A stretch of DNA of 64,000 bases, from positions 1-64,000 of the forward strand of contig JAFGRU010000065.1 of the NCBI GenBank assembly GCA_016934985.1, read 5' to 3'. Position 1 is the stretch's first letter; each line of letters starts with the position of its first letter. The DNA is from Deltaproteobacteria bacterium. GTDB taxonomy: Bacteria; Desulfobacterota; Desulfuromonadia; Desulfuromonadales; JAAYDE01. The notes beneath the pieces are model-generated. The model was not told the origin of the DNA. It saw only the letters and a list, made by a program, of their open reading frames with translations, and did no database searches. Below are positions 3,916-56,070 of this stretch, piece after piece. A program made the translations under genes and the position numbers.

Positions 3916-4187
3916 TCCGCTTCCGTGCTCTGCCGGCCAATACTGAACCGCCATGTTTTATAGACGCCAGCCTTCTGCCATTGTATGACCCGTCCGCCTT
4001 TCCCCTTTCAAGCCGCCCCGCTTTTTCGGGATTCAGCAATTTTGCAACACCCTCATAGTAAAAAACCCTTGATCATTACCAGATTGACCACCATATTTGC
4101 CATTGCGGGAAAAAACGAGCGGAATATTTGTTCGACGCAAAAGTTTAAGCTCGGGCATAGTGCTTCCAAAAAGCTTTTGGGACCAGG

Positions 4188-5102
4188 ATGGGGACTCAGA
4201 CAACAGCTCTTGAACTGTTCTGCGGCATCGGCGGCTTTGCTGCGGCCGCAGCCCGGATGCATATCCGGGTGGCAGAAGCTCTTGACCAGAGCCCGGTGGC
4301 CCTGGGCGTCTACCGGCTGAATTTCCCCGATCACCACGTCAGGAAAGCGGATCTGGAAAAGATAAGTGCCGGCGAACTGGCGGGCTTTGACGCCGACCTC
4401 TGGTGGCTGTCGCCCCCTTGCCAGCCCTACTCAGTGCGAGGACGCAAGAAAGACCTCGGCGACCCCAGGGCCAGGAGTCTGGCCCGCATTCTGGAGGTCT
4501 TTCCGAAGATTCCCCAAAAGCGGCTGCCGCAACACCTGGCCCTGGAAAACGTGCCCGCCTTTGCAGAATCACAGGCCCGTGCTCTTGTGGTTGGCCTGTT
4601 AAGCGACCGCGGCTACCACATCCATGAACGCCAGCTCTGTCCCACAGAGCTGGGCATTCCTTCGAGACGGCCGCGCTACTATCTGACCGCCTCACGTGAA
4701 GAGCTCACACCGCCTGAACCATTGCTGCTGCAGTCCCAGGCCCGGCCACTCAGCGCCTATCTCGACCCGGAACTGGATGATCCTCCAGCCGAGCTGCTTG
4801 TTCCGCCGGAGGTAGTGGCTCGCTTCGGCGAGGGTTTCCGCATCCTTGATCCGGCCGACCCCAATGCCTACACCACCTGCTTCACCGCAGCCTATGGCAA
4901 ATCCTTCATGCACGCCGGTTCTTACCTGCGCTGCCAAACCGGAGTGCGGCGCTTCTCGCCGATGGAAATAGCCGCCCTTCTACATTTCCCCCCGCAATTC
5001 CGCTTTCCTGAATCACTGCCTCTGCGCAAACGCTGGCACCTCCTCGGCAACAGCCTGTCGGTCGCCGCCGTCCGGGAAGTCGCCAGAATATTTTCCCTTT
5101 AA
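4188..5102 (+). CDS. dnmt2: Dnmt2-type tRNA (cytosine-38-C5)-methyltransferase
   Basis: This 304-residue enzyme has the cytosine-C5 methyltransferase fold. It shows motif I FCGIGGF (11-17), motif IV SPPCQPYS with catalytic Cys78, motif VI ENV (120-122), motif VIII RRPRYY (160-165) and motif X LLGNSL. Several features place it with Dnmt2 rather than with DNA methyltransferases: CFTAAYG at 231-237 (the CFT...YG hallmark), a very short target-recognition region, and a C-terminus (FSPMEIAALLHFPPQF, then GNSL) that aligns by eye with human DNMT2. Dnmt2 enzymes methylate C38 in the tRNA anticodon loop; a Geobacter sulfurreducens homologue has been reported to act on tRNA-Glu. No restriction endonuclease gene lies next to it, which also argues against a restriction-modification role. 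A small hairpin (4167-4181) sits just before the start. Confidence 0.88.
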   Translation: MGTQTTALELFCGIGGFAAAAARMHIRVAEALDQSPVALGVYRLNFPDHHVRKADLEKISAGELAGFDADLWWLSPPCQPYSVRGRKKDLGDPRARSLARILEVFPKIPQKRLPQHLALENVPAFAESQARALVVGLLSDRGYHIHERQLCPTELGIPSRRPRYYLTASREELTPPEPLLLQSQARPLSAYLDPELDDPPAELLVPPEVVARFGEGFRILDPADPNAYTTCFTAAYGKSFMHAGSYLRCQTGVRRFSPMEIAALLHFPPQFRFPESLPLRKRWHLLGNSLSVAAVREVARIFSL

Positions 5103-5124
5103 TGCCCCGGATTTTTTCCTCAGG

Positions 5125-6123
5125 TCAGCGGTCAAGATCGATGACCGTCCGGCCCCTGGACTCTCCCCGCAGCATCTTATCGATACAGCTGTCGAGATCG
5201 TTCAAGCTCACCTCGGTGCGCAAGGACTCCAGGCATTCAAGTTTCCAGTCACCGGCAAGCTTTTGCCAGATTTCCCGGCGCACATCATCGGGAGCTTCGG
5301 CGGCGGCAATGCCAAGAAGGCTCACGCCCCGGAGAATGAAAGGATAGACCGTCAGCGACAGATCGGGGGAGGCAACATTTCCGCAGGTGGTGACCACCCC
5401 CCCGAAACAAGTCGACTTGAGAGCGCCGGCCAGGAAGGGCCCGCCCACGGTATCGACGGCCCCGGCCCAGTGGCTTCTGAGAAGAGACCGTTCGGGGGCA
5501 TCCTTAACCTTGTCGCGGTCGATCACCGCCCGGGCACCAAGATTCTCGAGGAAAGGAGCAGCTCCCGGCTTGCCCGTGGCCGCCACCACCCGGTATCCGG
5601 CTTTGGCCAGCAGTGCTACAGCCATGCTCCCGACCCCGCCGCTGGCGCCGGTAACCAGGACTTCGCCCTCATCCGGCCGCACATGAGGCATGAGTTTTAA
5701 AAGCGAATAGGCTGCGGTAAAGCCGGCAGTGCCGTAAATCATGCTCTCCCTGAGGGACAAAGCGGCGGGACGCCTCAACACCCAGGATGAAGGAATTCGG
5801 ATGTATTGGCCGAAACCGCCCGGCGTATTCATGCCGAGATCGCGGCCGGTCACGATGACTTCCTCTCCCGCTTCGAACCCGGGGACCGAGCTTTCCTCTA
5901 CGACACCGGCCGCATCCACGCCCGGAGTGTGGGGATACTTGCGGGTCACCCCTTTGTTGCCAGTGGCGGAAAGGACATCCTTGTAGTTGAGCGAAGAATA
6001 ACGAACCCGCACCAGGACTTCGCCCGGAGGAAGATCGGATGTCGAGCGTTCGACGATCCTGCGCGTGAAACTTCCTTCTTCCGGCTCCTCGACAAGCAGA
6101 GCCTTAAAGGTTTTTTCCGTCAT
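5125..6123 (-). CDS. YhdH/AcuI-type NADPH-dependent oxidoreductase
   Basis: This 332-residue zinc-free medium-chain dehydrogenase/reductase is of the YhdH/YhfP type, which includes acrylyl-CoA reductase AcuI. The N-terminal catalytic domain has SSLNYKDVL and PGVDAAGVV. The nucleotide-binding fold has VTGASGGVGSMAVALL at 157-172. The structural-zinc cysteines of alcohol dehydrogenases are absent. The C-terminus RGESRGRTVIDLD is typical of the family. The exact substrate cannot be read from sequence; acrylyl-CoA or another enoyl/quinone compound is possible. It converges on the Dnmt2 gene, leaving 22 bases between the two stops, and lies 66 bases downstream of the VTT-domain gene on the same strand, so the two may share a transcript. 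Confidence 0.85.
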   Translation of the reverse strand: MTEKTFKALLVEEPEEGSFTRRIVERSTSDLPPGEVLVRVRYSSLNYKDVLSATGNKGVTRKYPHTPGVDAAGVVEESSVPGFEAGEEVIVTGRDLGMNTPGGFGQYIRIPSSWVLRRPAALSLRESMIYGTAGFTAAYSLLKLMPHVRPDEGEVLVTGASGGVGSMAVALLAKAGYRVVAATGKPGAAPFLENLGARAVIDRDKVKDAPERSLLRSHWAGAVDTVGGPFLAGALKSTCFGGVVTTCGNVASPDLSLTVYPFILRGVSLLGIAAAEAPDDVRREIWQKLAGDWKLECLESLRTEVSLNDLDSCIDKMLRGESRGRTVIDLDR

Positions 6124-52774: not shown

Positions 52775-54142
52775 GTGAACCGAGACGATACCATAACTGC
52801 TCCGGCCACCCCACATGGTGAAGGGGGTATAGCCATTATCCGGGTTTCAGGTTCTCAGGCTGAAAACCTGATGAAGTTGTTCTTCCGGCCTTCCTCCAAA
52901 TACTCTGAGATTTATTCCCATTATTTTTATCATGGCCTTTTCCTCAATGAGGAGTCGGAACCCCTTGATGAGGTCATGGCCGTGCTGATGAGAAAACCGC
53001 GCTCCTATACAAGGGAGGATGTCCTTGAAATTCATTGTCATGGAGGCTACCTTTCCATGCAGAGAATTTTGGAAACCTTTCTTAAAGGGGGTGCCCGTTT
53101 GGCCGAGCCTGGTGAATTTACATTGCGGGCCTTTTTAAACGGGCGTATTGATCTCACTGAGGCTGAAGGGGTAATTGACATCATCAGTGCGCGCTCGGAC
53201 CGGGCCGCGCGTAACGCCTTCCGCCATCTCCGTGGGGATCTTTTCAAACTTCTTGGGAATATTCGAAGTCAGCTGGTTGATCTTCTGGTTTTGCTTGAAG
53301 CCTATATTGACTTTCCCGAGGAGGAAGTTGCCATTCCTCATTTTCATGATTTTTCCCATGGGGCCCTATCAGCCGAAAAGGCCATTAATGAATTGTTAGG
53401 CTCGTTTAATGTTGGCAAAATACTTAAGGATGGGCTTGTTGTTCTTCTTTTAGGAAAGCCTAATGTTGGGAAAAGCTCCCTTCTCAACCGGTTGCTTGGG
53501 GAGGAGCGTGCCATCGTAACGGAAATTCCCGGGACTACTCGGGATACTATAGAGGAATATCTGTCTCTGGGAGGGTTTCCCATAAAATTGATTGACACGG
53601 CAGGTGTTCGTGATTCAGACGACCCCATAGAAGTGGAAGGTGTGGAAAGGGCCAAGGGGAAAATTACCTCGGCTGACGTTGTTCTTCTTTTGGTGGACGG
53701 AAGCCAGGGTTTGACACCTGAGGACTATACTGCGCTTGAATTTAGCCACGGGACTCGACGTATTCTTGTCATCAATAAACAAGACCTTGGGGCGGTGGCT
53801 CTCCCTGGTGATTTACTTCAATTACCCCATGTCAATGTGTCAGCAAGAACCGGGCAGGGTTTTGAAAAATTGCAAGATTTGATTATAGAGCAAGTCGCTC
53901 CCGCCCAAGGTCCAGATATTGGCGAATCCGTTATTCTTTCTTCTCTTCGGCAAAAAGAGGCTCTCGGCCAGTCTCTTGAAAGCCTCGGTCGTTTTAAAGC
54001 TGGTCTTAAAGAAAGGTTACCTCTCGAATGCCTTGCCACCGATTTAAGAGATGCTATTCAGTCTCTCGGGGAGGTAACCGGCGAGACCCTTTCCGAAGAA
54101 GTCCTTGGCAGGATATTTTCCCGATTCTGTATTGGAAAATAA
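52775..54142 (+). CDS. mnmE: MnmE: tRNA wobble-uridine modification GTPase
   Basis: This 455-residue GTPase works with MnmG to add the aminomethyl or carboxymethylaminomethyl group at U34 of certain tRNAs. The N-terminal tetrahydrofolate-binding domain begins DDTITAPATPHGEGGIAIIRVSG. The G domain has GKPNVGKSSLLNRLLGEERA, TEIPGTTRDT and INKQD. The C-terminus is the conserved CIGK, whose Cys is essential. Start is GTG 52775 with a weak ribosome site. It lies between yidC and the parS-mnmG segment. Confidence 0.96.
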   Translation: MNRDDTITAPATPHGEGGIAIIRVSGSQAENLMKLFFRPSSKYSEIYSHYFYHGLFLNEESEPLDEVMAVLMRKPRSYTREDVLEIHCHGGYLSMQRILETFLKGGARLAEPGEFTLRAFLNGRIDLTEAEGVIDIISARSDRAARNAFRHLRGDLFKLLGNIRSQLVDLLVLLEAYIDFPEEEVAIPHFHDFSHGALSAEKAINELLGSFNVGKILKDGLVVLLLGKPNVGKSSLLNRLLGEERAIVTEIPGTTRDTIEEYLSLGGFPIKLIDTAGVRDSDDPIEVEGVERAKGKITSADVVLLLVDGSQGLTPEDYTALEFSHGTRRILVINKQDLGAVALPGDLLQLPHVNVSARTGQGFEKLQDLIIEQVAPAQGPDIGESVILSSLRQKEALGQSLESLGRFKAGLKERLPLECLATDLRDAIQSLGEVTGETLSEEVLGRIFSRFCIGK

Positions 54143-54198: not shown

Positions 54199-56070
54199 AT
54201 GTTGACCACAAAAATTACCTATCAAAAAAAATATAAAGTAATTGTTGTTGGGGCAGGTCATGCTGGGTGTGAGGCGGCACTTGCCACGGCAAGAATGGGT
54301 TTGGATACTCTCCTCTTGACCATGAACCTCGACACCATAGCCCAGATGTCATGCAATCCGGCAATTGGGGGGTTGGCTAAGGGACAGTTGGTTAAGGAAA
54401 TAGATGCCCTGGGCGGAGAAATGGCATTAAATACCGATGCCACGGGGTTGCAGTTCAGGATTTTAAATACCAAGAAAGGTCCGGCGGTTCGAGCTTCACG
54501 CGCTCAGGCAGACAGGAGTTTGTATCACCAAAGAATGAAGGGGGTTTTGGAACAACAGCCTCTTCTGGATATTAAACAGGGGGCGGTAGAGCGTTTGGCC
54601 TTGGTGGGACAGCGGGTTGCAGGGGTTGAAACACGAGAGGGTGTTGTTTTTTTAGGTGAGAAGGTGGTTTTGACTTCGGGAACATTTTTGCGGGGCTTGA
54701 TTCACGTCGGGATGAATAATTTCCCGGGTGGGCGCGCGGGGGAACCTGCGGCAATGGGTCTTTCGGGCCAGTTAAAGAATTTAGGTTTTGAGGTGGGGCG
54801 CTTAAAAACCGGCACGCCACCACGTTTAGATGGTAAAACAATTAATTATTCAAACCTTCAGCCCCAGTATGGTGATGACCCGCCCAGGCCATTTTCGTTT
54901 TTAAACCAAACAATAGATGGCAGACAACTCCCCTGTTTTATAACCTACACCAACCGTCAAACCCATGAGTTGATTACCGGGGGTTTGGACCGTTCACCCC
55001 TCTATAGTGGGGTGATTGAAGGGGTTGGCCCGCGCTATTGCCCTTCGATAGAGGATAAAATAGTCAGGTTTCCGGAAAAGGACCAGCATCAAATTTTTCT
55101 GGAGCCGGAAGGATGGAATACGACGGAGGTATACCCTAATGGTTTGCCAACCTCATTGCCCGTGGATGTCCAAGTAGCTTTTTTAAGGACGATCCAAGGT
55201 TTGGAGCGTGTAGAGGTGGTCCGTTTTGGTTATGCCATTGAATACGATTATGTGGACCCAGTTCAATTAAAACCGAGTCTTGAGACTAAATTAATAGAGG
55301 GACTTTATCACGCGGGGCAGATTAACGGAACGTCGGGTTACGAAGAAGCCGCTGCCCAGGGACTTTTGGCTGGCATTAATGCAGGGTTGGCGTGTAGAGA
55401 GTGTGCCCCTCTTGTCCTTGGTCGAGATCAGGCCTATATTGGGGTGCTGATAGATGATTTGGTCAACCTTGGAACCAACGAGCCGTACCGGATGTTTACT
55501 TCACGGGCGGAATATCGTTTGTTATTGCGAGAAGACAACGCGGATCAGAGATTAACGGAAATAGGGCGTAAGGTTGGATTGGTTGCGGAGGACCGTTGGC
55601 GTCTATATGTAGAAAAAGTAGCTGATCTGAATGCCGCCGAAGAAAAATTGAAAAATATCAGAGTAGGGCCTGCCGATAAGGAAATTCTCGCAAGGTTGAA
55701 AATAGAAGACCTGCAGAACGGATTGAGTGGTAAGGAATTGTTGAAGCGGCCTGGCATCGATATGACGGATTTAAAGGTCTCCGCTGTTGAGTTAAAAGCT
55801 TTTTCCGAAGAGGTTTTGGAGCAACTCGAGATTGCTGTGAAGTATGAAGGCTACATAAAAAGGCAAATTGAACAAGTTGAGAGGTTCCGAAAAACCGAGA
55901 ATGTTGCTATTCCGGAAAATATAAATTATGATGCCATCTCGGGTTTGACTGCCGAGGTTCGCGAGAAGTTGAATAAGGTTCGACCCCTGACATTGGGGCA
56001 GGCATCGAGAATCCGGGGGATGACTCCGGCCGCAATGGCTATCCTGTCCGTGGCGATTCGTCGAGTTTGA
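54199..56070 (+). CDS. mnmG: MnmG: tRNA wobble-uridine modification FAD enzyme
   Basis: This 623-residue FAD- and NADH-dependent partner of MnmE has the dinucleotide fold VIVVGAGHAGCEAALA near the N-terminus, the CNPAIGGLAKG signature, TGTPPRLDGKTI, and the C-terminal domain that binds MnmE and tRNA (AISGLTAEVREKL, with RIRGMTPAA near the end). It modifies U34 of tRNAs such as Glu, Gln, Lys and Leu. It follows the parS site by 33 bases, so ParB loading may affect its transcription. Confidence 0.97.
   Translation: MLTTKITYQKKYKVIVVGAGHAGCEAALATARMGLDTLLLTMNLDTIAQMSCNPAIGGLAKGQLVKEIDALGGEMALNTDATGLQFRILNTKKGPAVRASRAQADRSLYHQRMKGVLEQQPLLDIKQGAVERLALVGQRVAGVETREGVVFLGEKVVLTSGTFLRGLIHVGMNNFPGGRAGEPAAMGLSGQLKNLGFEVGRLKTGTPPRLDGKTINYSNLQPQYGDDPPRPFSFLNQTIDGRQLPCFITYTNRQTHELITGGLDRSPLYSGVIEGVGPRYCPSIEDKIVRFPEKDQHQIFLEPEGWNTTEVYPNGLPTSLPVDVQVAFLRTIQGLERVEVVRFGYAIEYDYVDPVQLKPSLETKLIEGLYHAGQINGTSGYEEAAAQGLLAGINAGLACRECAPLVLGRDQAYIGVLIDDLVNLGTNEPYRMFTSRAEYRLLLREDNADQRLTEIGRKVGLVAEDRWRLYVEKVADLNAAEEKLKNIRVGPADKEILARLKIEDLQNGLSGKELLKRPGIDMTDLKVSAVELKAFSEEVLEQLEIAVKYEGYIKRQIEQVERFRKTENVAIPENINYDAISGLTAEVREKLNKVRPLTLGQASRIRGMTPAAMAILSVAIRRV

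Follow-up and report, generated by a model that had tools for sequence, protein, structure and literature searches.

One open reading frame in the 64,000-nucleotide stretch of DNA analysed here (the window) encodes a protein that resembles cytosine-C5 methyltransferases, and the question that it raises is whether the enzyme modifies DNA or tRNA. Dnmt2, one family of such enzymes, methylates the tRNA anticodon loop in animals, yeast and one Geobacter. Because annotation pipelines lean to the name "DNA methyltransferase", which would predict 5-methylcytosine in DNA, correct naming matters. The best explanation, which we hold with high confidence, is that the gene encodes a bacterial Dnmt2 that probably methylates C38 of tRNA, with tRNA-Glu(UUC) as the most likely target.

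The reading frame and its family

The reading frame is real, intact and conserved. It starts with ATG, contains no internal stop codon and has no alternative in-frame ATG, GTG or TTG start upstream, and the N-terminus of its product agrees with those of the homologues. Seventeen orthologues from the class align with the product over the full length at 46-70% identity, which is far beyond chance. The protein consists of one catalytic domain and has no N-terminal regulatory domain. The first-pass annotation, which had proposed a Dnmt2 homologue that acts on tRNA, named the C5-methyltransferase motifs, and motifs I (LELFCGIGGF), IV (PPC within SPPCQP), VI (ENV within LALENV), VIII (RxR within RRPR) and X (GNSLSV) are indeed all intact (Table 1). 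The CFT...YG signature was placed correctly as well; C231, F232, Y236 and G237 are invariant across the 18 aligned class-level sequences, as are Cys78, Glu120, Arg161 and Arg163, and T233 is nearly so. The "very short target-recognition region" that had been claimed is only mildly true, as motif VIII and CFT are 54-92 residues apart (median 58) in bacterial Dnmt2, while the nine DNA methyltransferases compared have 59-86 residues (median 75).

Table 1. Positions in the window of the dnmt2 gene and of the motifs that it encodes
Feature	Position	Strand	Remark or source
Dnmt2 (TRDMT1-type) C5-cytosine methyltransferase gene, 304 aa	4188..5102	+	
Motif I, SAM binding, TALELFCGIGGFAAA, residues 6-20	4203..4247	+	contains LELFCGIGGF
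Motif IV, SPPCQP, residues 75-80, catalytic Cys78 and Dnmt2-conserved proline after CQ	4410..4427	+	PMC5995894
Motif VI, ENV (within LALENV), residues 120-122, catalytic Glu120	4545..4553	+	
Motif VIII, Arg161/Arg163 (within RRPR)	4668..4676	+	
CFT...YG Dnmt2 signature, residues 231-237	4878..4898	+	PMC3227630
Motif X, GNSLSV, residues 287-292, Dnmt2-like, not GNAVPP	5046..5063	+	

The proposed homology with Dnmt2 was borne out by motif, by ranking against solved structures, by predicted fold and by phylogeny. When the protein was searched against the PDB sequences, five Dnmt2 sequences came first (E 4e-43 to 7e-31), followed by HhaI at 2e-13, and a profile of the orthologues gave 1e-65 to 7e-49 for Dnmt2 versus 5e-27 for HhaI. 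The AlphaFold2 model was confident (pLDDT 91.1, pTM 0.89), and a Foldseek search of the PDB with this model returned Dnmt2 chains from human, Entamoeba, S. pombe and Spodoptera at ranks 1-9 (E 8e-28 to 2e-24, 25-31% identity) before the next match, HhaI, at 1e-19. Two DNA methyltransferases of the class served as control queries, and these retrieved HhaI or HaeIII at the top and Dnmt2 far lower. The strict CFT motif is present in the window protein, in 64 of the 79 bacterial rows and in all four eukaryotic sequences, and in none of nine DNA methyltransferases. Some bacterial Dnmt2 relatives (L116, L124, L144, L149, L156 and L166) carry TFT or TVT in its place, and the CFT rule is thus not absolute in bacteria. 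We conclude that the gene product is a Dnmt2 (TRDMT1-type), a member of a known family, and not a Dcm-type DNA methyltransferase.

The predicted substrate and the alternatives

By analogy with its family and with the published Geobacter enzyme, we infer that the window protein acts on tRNA rather than on DNA. S-adenosylmethionine would serve as the methyl donor in the chemistry of the DNA methyltransferases, with Cys78 attacking C6 of a flipped base and Glu120 contacting that base, and C5 of cytosine 38 in the anticodon loop would become methylated. Following tRNA-Glu(UUC), tRNA-Asp would be the second candidate and tRNA-Val(GAC) an outside one. The likely effect would be a fine tuning of the charging, decoding or nuclease resistance of the target tRNA, and the patchy presence of dnmt2 suggests that the gene is dispensable in many relatives.

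The organism's own assembly, which is about 90% complete, yielded no detectable gene for either tRNA-Glu or tRNA-Asp. Two genomes of the same family encode a tRNA-Glu(UUC) with the anticodon loop CTTTCAC, which includes C38, and a four-nucleotide variable loop, CGAC, along with a tRNA-Asp that has C38 and a five-nucleotide variable loop, AGGTC. The four-nucleotide loop ending in GAC in the tRNA-Glu of the relatives resembles that of the preferred Dnmt2 substrate. No co-variation of the tRNAs with the presence of dnmt2 was found, as C38 and the loop types, CGAC among them, occur equally in relatives with and without the gene; the tRNAs therefore permit the proposed activity and give it no support. 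Genomes of the Geobacter type carry two tRNA-Glu(UUC) isoforms that differ in the variable loop (CGAC in L079, L080, L082 and L088 versus TAAC in L076, L083 and L089), and only one of the two may be a Dnmt2 substrate.

One could envision that the main substrate of this Dnmt2 is something other than C38 of tRNA-Glu, namely another tRNA (Asp or Val-GAC), another RNA or DNA. We regard this as unlikely, yet as the alternative that deserves the most weight. Five basic residues, R95, R275, K295, K367 and R371, are important for the activity of human DNMT2 (PMC5995894). The window protein has R94, R212 and R280 at the positions of R95, R275 and K367, whereas K295 and R371 are replaced by Ala234 and His284, so that the tRNA contacts are only partly conserved; the position of human Lys295 is not basic in bacterial Dnmt2 in general, being mostly Ser or Ala, which favors a different substrate. 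So does the occurrence of C38 in every tRNA-Asp found in the relatives and in the organism's own tRNA-Val(GAC) (L042, 1498-1572), a possible minor substrate that also has A37 and a five-nucleotide variable loop. The Geobacter sulfurreducens Dnmt2 is reported to methylate C38 of tRNA-Glu and to differ from the eukaryotic enzymes in its choice of tRNA (PMC5372726 and its reference 6). The latter point would fit a departure in substrate, but the former means that the single characterized bacterial relative acts on tRNA-Glu. In addition, the variable loop of four nucleotides ending in GAC, presumably the preferred form, is found in the tRNA-Glu of the relatives and not in their tRNA-Asp.

Alternatively, the gene product could be a solitary DNA C5-methyltransferase of the Dcm type, with a short motif as its target. 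The catalytic chemistry is identical, and the generic models do match: PF00145 scores 101 bits, TIGR00675 (dcm), the sole NCBIfam model matched, 89.4 bits, and the PADLOC Type II methyltransferase models reach E 2e-29. These models pull the protein toward "dcm", and the earlier warning that it is easily misannotated was therefore fair. However, the TIGR00675 score lies under the cut-off of 100.65, with its best stretch at residues 8-172, and the best stretches of Pfam, NCBIfam and most PADLOC models fall in the N-terminal half, which both kinds of enzyme have in common (about residues 4-180). Dnmt2 sequences are ahead of HhaI by 17-29 orders of magnitude and are also first by fold, the protein has the CFT motif and GNSLSV rather than GNAVPP, and no restriction endonuclease is encoded beside it: among six neighboring proteins, a search for an endonuclease or defense gene gave no PADLOC match and no endonuclease domain.

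The trees also separate the window protein from the DNA methyltransferases. The larger one held 92 rows (the window protein, 78 bacterial relatives, four eukaryotic Dnmt2 sequences from the PDB and nine DNA methyltransferases), and the smaller one 39 rows, with HaeIII added and seven DNA methyltransferases. Dnmt2 was split from the DNA enzymes at 100/100 in the former, by a long branch, and at 100/99 in the latter. The window protein did not fall within a DNA methyltransferase clade; it grouped with Desulfuromonas-type proteins at 99/89 in the 92-row tree, and joining it to the HhaI group in the 39-row tree was rejected by the AU test (p = 0.014). A topology with the window protein and all DNA enzymes on one side was not rejected (p = 0.22), but this is a weaker test that only requires the window protein to be the first Dnmt2 branch, and the best tree sets it deep inside Dnmt2 and not at the base. 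Taken with the motif and structure rankings, these results make a Dcm-type enzyme very improbable. Least probable of all is a decayed or inactive copy, as suggested by a gene that is solitary, patchy among relatives and of deviating composition (G+C 61.5% versus 50.7% for the window), because the gene is full length, has every catalytic residue and retains the invariant columns.

Genomic setting, bacterial distribution and the origin of eukaryotic Dnmt2

The window gene accounts for the only PF00145 match found in its own assembly. It lies downstream of a gene for a PAS-GGDEF-EAL protein and is followed by a convergent gene for a YhdH-type reductase. The region from 4100 to 6115, which holds dnmt2 and yhdH, is the only stretch of the window in which G+C over 915 bp is at least 60%, and both genes may come from a G+C-richer relative. 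Across about 80 Dnmt2 loci the neighborhood is not conserved, and the only families that recur near the gene have generic domains or come from groups of close relatives. In three Sulfurospirillum loci (L118, L120 and L121), queC- and queE-like genes for queuosine precursor synthesis lie about 2-6 kb from dnmt2; these loci are close relatives only, so the proximity is not independent. The own genome gave two strong matches to tgt (tRNA-guanine transglycosylase) of 539 and 517 bits, at G000:C57:30005-31078 (L174) and G000:C64:1568-2632, which are a paralogue or a binning duplicate. A search of the window against Rfam gave no RNA family match. The first-pass annotation had also pointed to mnmE and mnmG in the window. 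Both are present (52775-54142 and 54199-56070). They lie 47 kb from dnmt2, beside a cluster of yidC, dnaA and parAB that is itself about 45 kb away from it, and their co-occurrence with dnmt2 is a positional accident that gives no evidence of linkage.

Bacterial Dnmt2 genes had been called rare, and they are patchy but not confined to Geobacter. Dnmt2 was found, fragments included, in 22 of 277 genomes of the class, and 7 of 395 sampled genomes of the phylum reached 1e-30, one of them weakly (2e-32). A scan of the GTDB 220 contigs with a single sequence gave no match, while a scan based on an alignment identified 142 Dnmt2 loci. The best 80 of these 142 come from Desulfuromonadales, Geobacter, Syntrophales, Sulfurospirillum, Acidobacteriota, Planctomycetota, Myxococcota and Lujinxingia, and include single MAG contigs labeled Actinobacteria, Riflebacteria, Obscuribacterales and others; as many loci are from MAGs, the taxon labels may be wrong. 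One record titled Klebsiella pneumoniae (MAG) (L155, CAMAWH010000036.1) groups with the Dnmt2 of Acidobacteriota and Planctomycetota and is probably mislabeled. Isolates are also represented (Geobacter argillaceus, Sulfurospirillum arcachonense and Lujinxingia vulgaris). Among the plasmid, phage and viral rows listed, full or partial matches were DNA-methyltransferase-like and only 21-31% identical, with the exception of short pieces of less than 70 residues that reached up to 49% identity, and the best viral protein has GNAVAV and no CFT. A search of the open-licence literature found no paper on a wider bacterial spread. The family is thus far more widespread in bacteria than the open-licence literature states.

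This breadth, and its bearing on the origin of eukaryotic Dnmt2, is the part that could surprise specialists. A phylogeny published in 2011 had Geobacter as the sole bacterial holder of Dnmt2 and suggested a transfer from eukaryote to bacterium (PMC3227630). The exclusive grouping of eukaryotes with Geobacter and Desulfuromonas that this idea predicts was rejected (AU p = 0.008). The eukaryotic proteins, represented by four sequences only, form one clade at 100/99, and the Acidobacteria protein L169 joins them at 98/96 in the 39-row tree; by translation, the neighbors of L169 on its contig look bacterial (pyruvate phosphate dikinase, ABC-F, ComEC and NtrC types). A topology with bacterial Dnmt2 as a group opposite the eukaryotes and the DNA enzymes was not rejected (p = 0.34), and the eukaryotic proteins may either be nested in bacterial Dnmt2 or stand beside it. 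One tentative hypothesis, to which we give slightly less than even weight, is that Dnmt2 is an old and widespread bacterial tRNA-modification family from which the eukaryotic Dnmt2 branched (nearest here to L169), rather than an invention of a eukaryotic ancestor that was later passed to Geobacter. Cultured isolates that carry Dnmt2 allow direct tests of the origin of eukaryotic Dnmt2 and of what m5C38 does in bacteria.

Comparison with characterized enzymes

The window protein shares its catalytic domain and chemistry with M.HhaI and the other Type II C5 DNA methyltransferases (TM-score 0.75-0.81 to the HhaI chains), but those enzymes are without CFT, have in most sampled cases a GNAVP-type motif X, and fall outside the Dnmt2 clade. 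With human DNMT2/TRDMT1 (1g55, 9hgm), S. pombe Pmt1 (6fdf), Entamoeba Ehmeth (3qv2) and Spodoptera DNMT2 (4h0n), it has in common the fold, the motifs, CFT, the GNS of motif X and R95, and the bacterial rows mostly have R or K at the positions of human R275 and K367. It differs from these eukaryotic enzymes in its identity of 25-31%, in its length (304 aa versus 327-348 aa for the PDB chains) and in the Ala and His at the positions of Lys295 and Arg371. The closest known system is GsDnmt2 of Geobacter sulfurreducens (Shanmugam et al. 2014 NAR, as cited in PMC5372726). Of the two proteins, GsDnmt2 is the one with demonstrated activity. Both belong to the same bacterial Dnmt2 family and to the Desulfuromonadales/Geobacterales lineage, and the nearest rows to the window protein in the tree are proteins of Desulfuromonas and Geobacteraceae.
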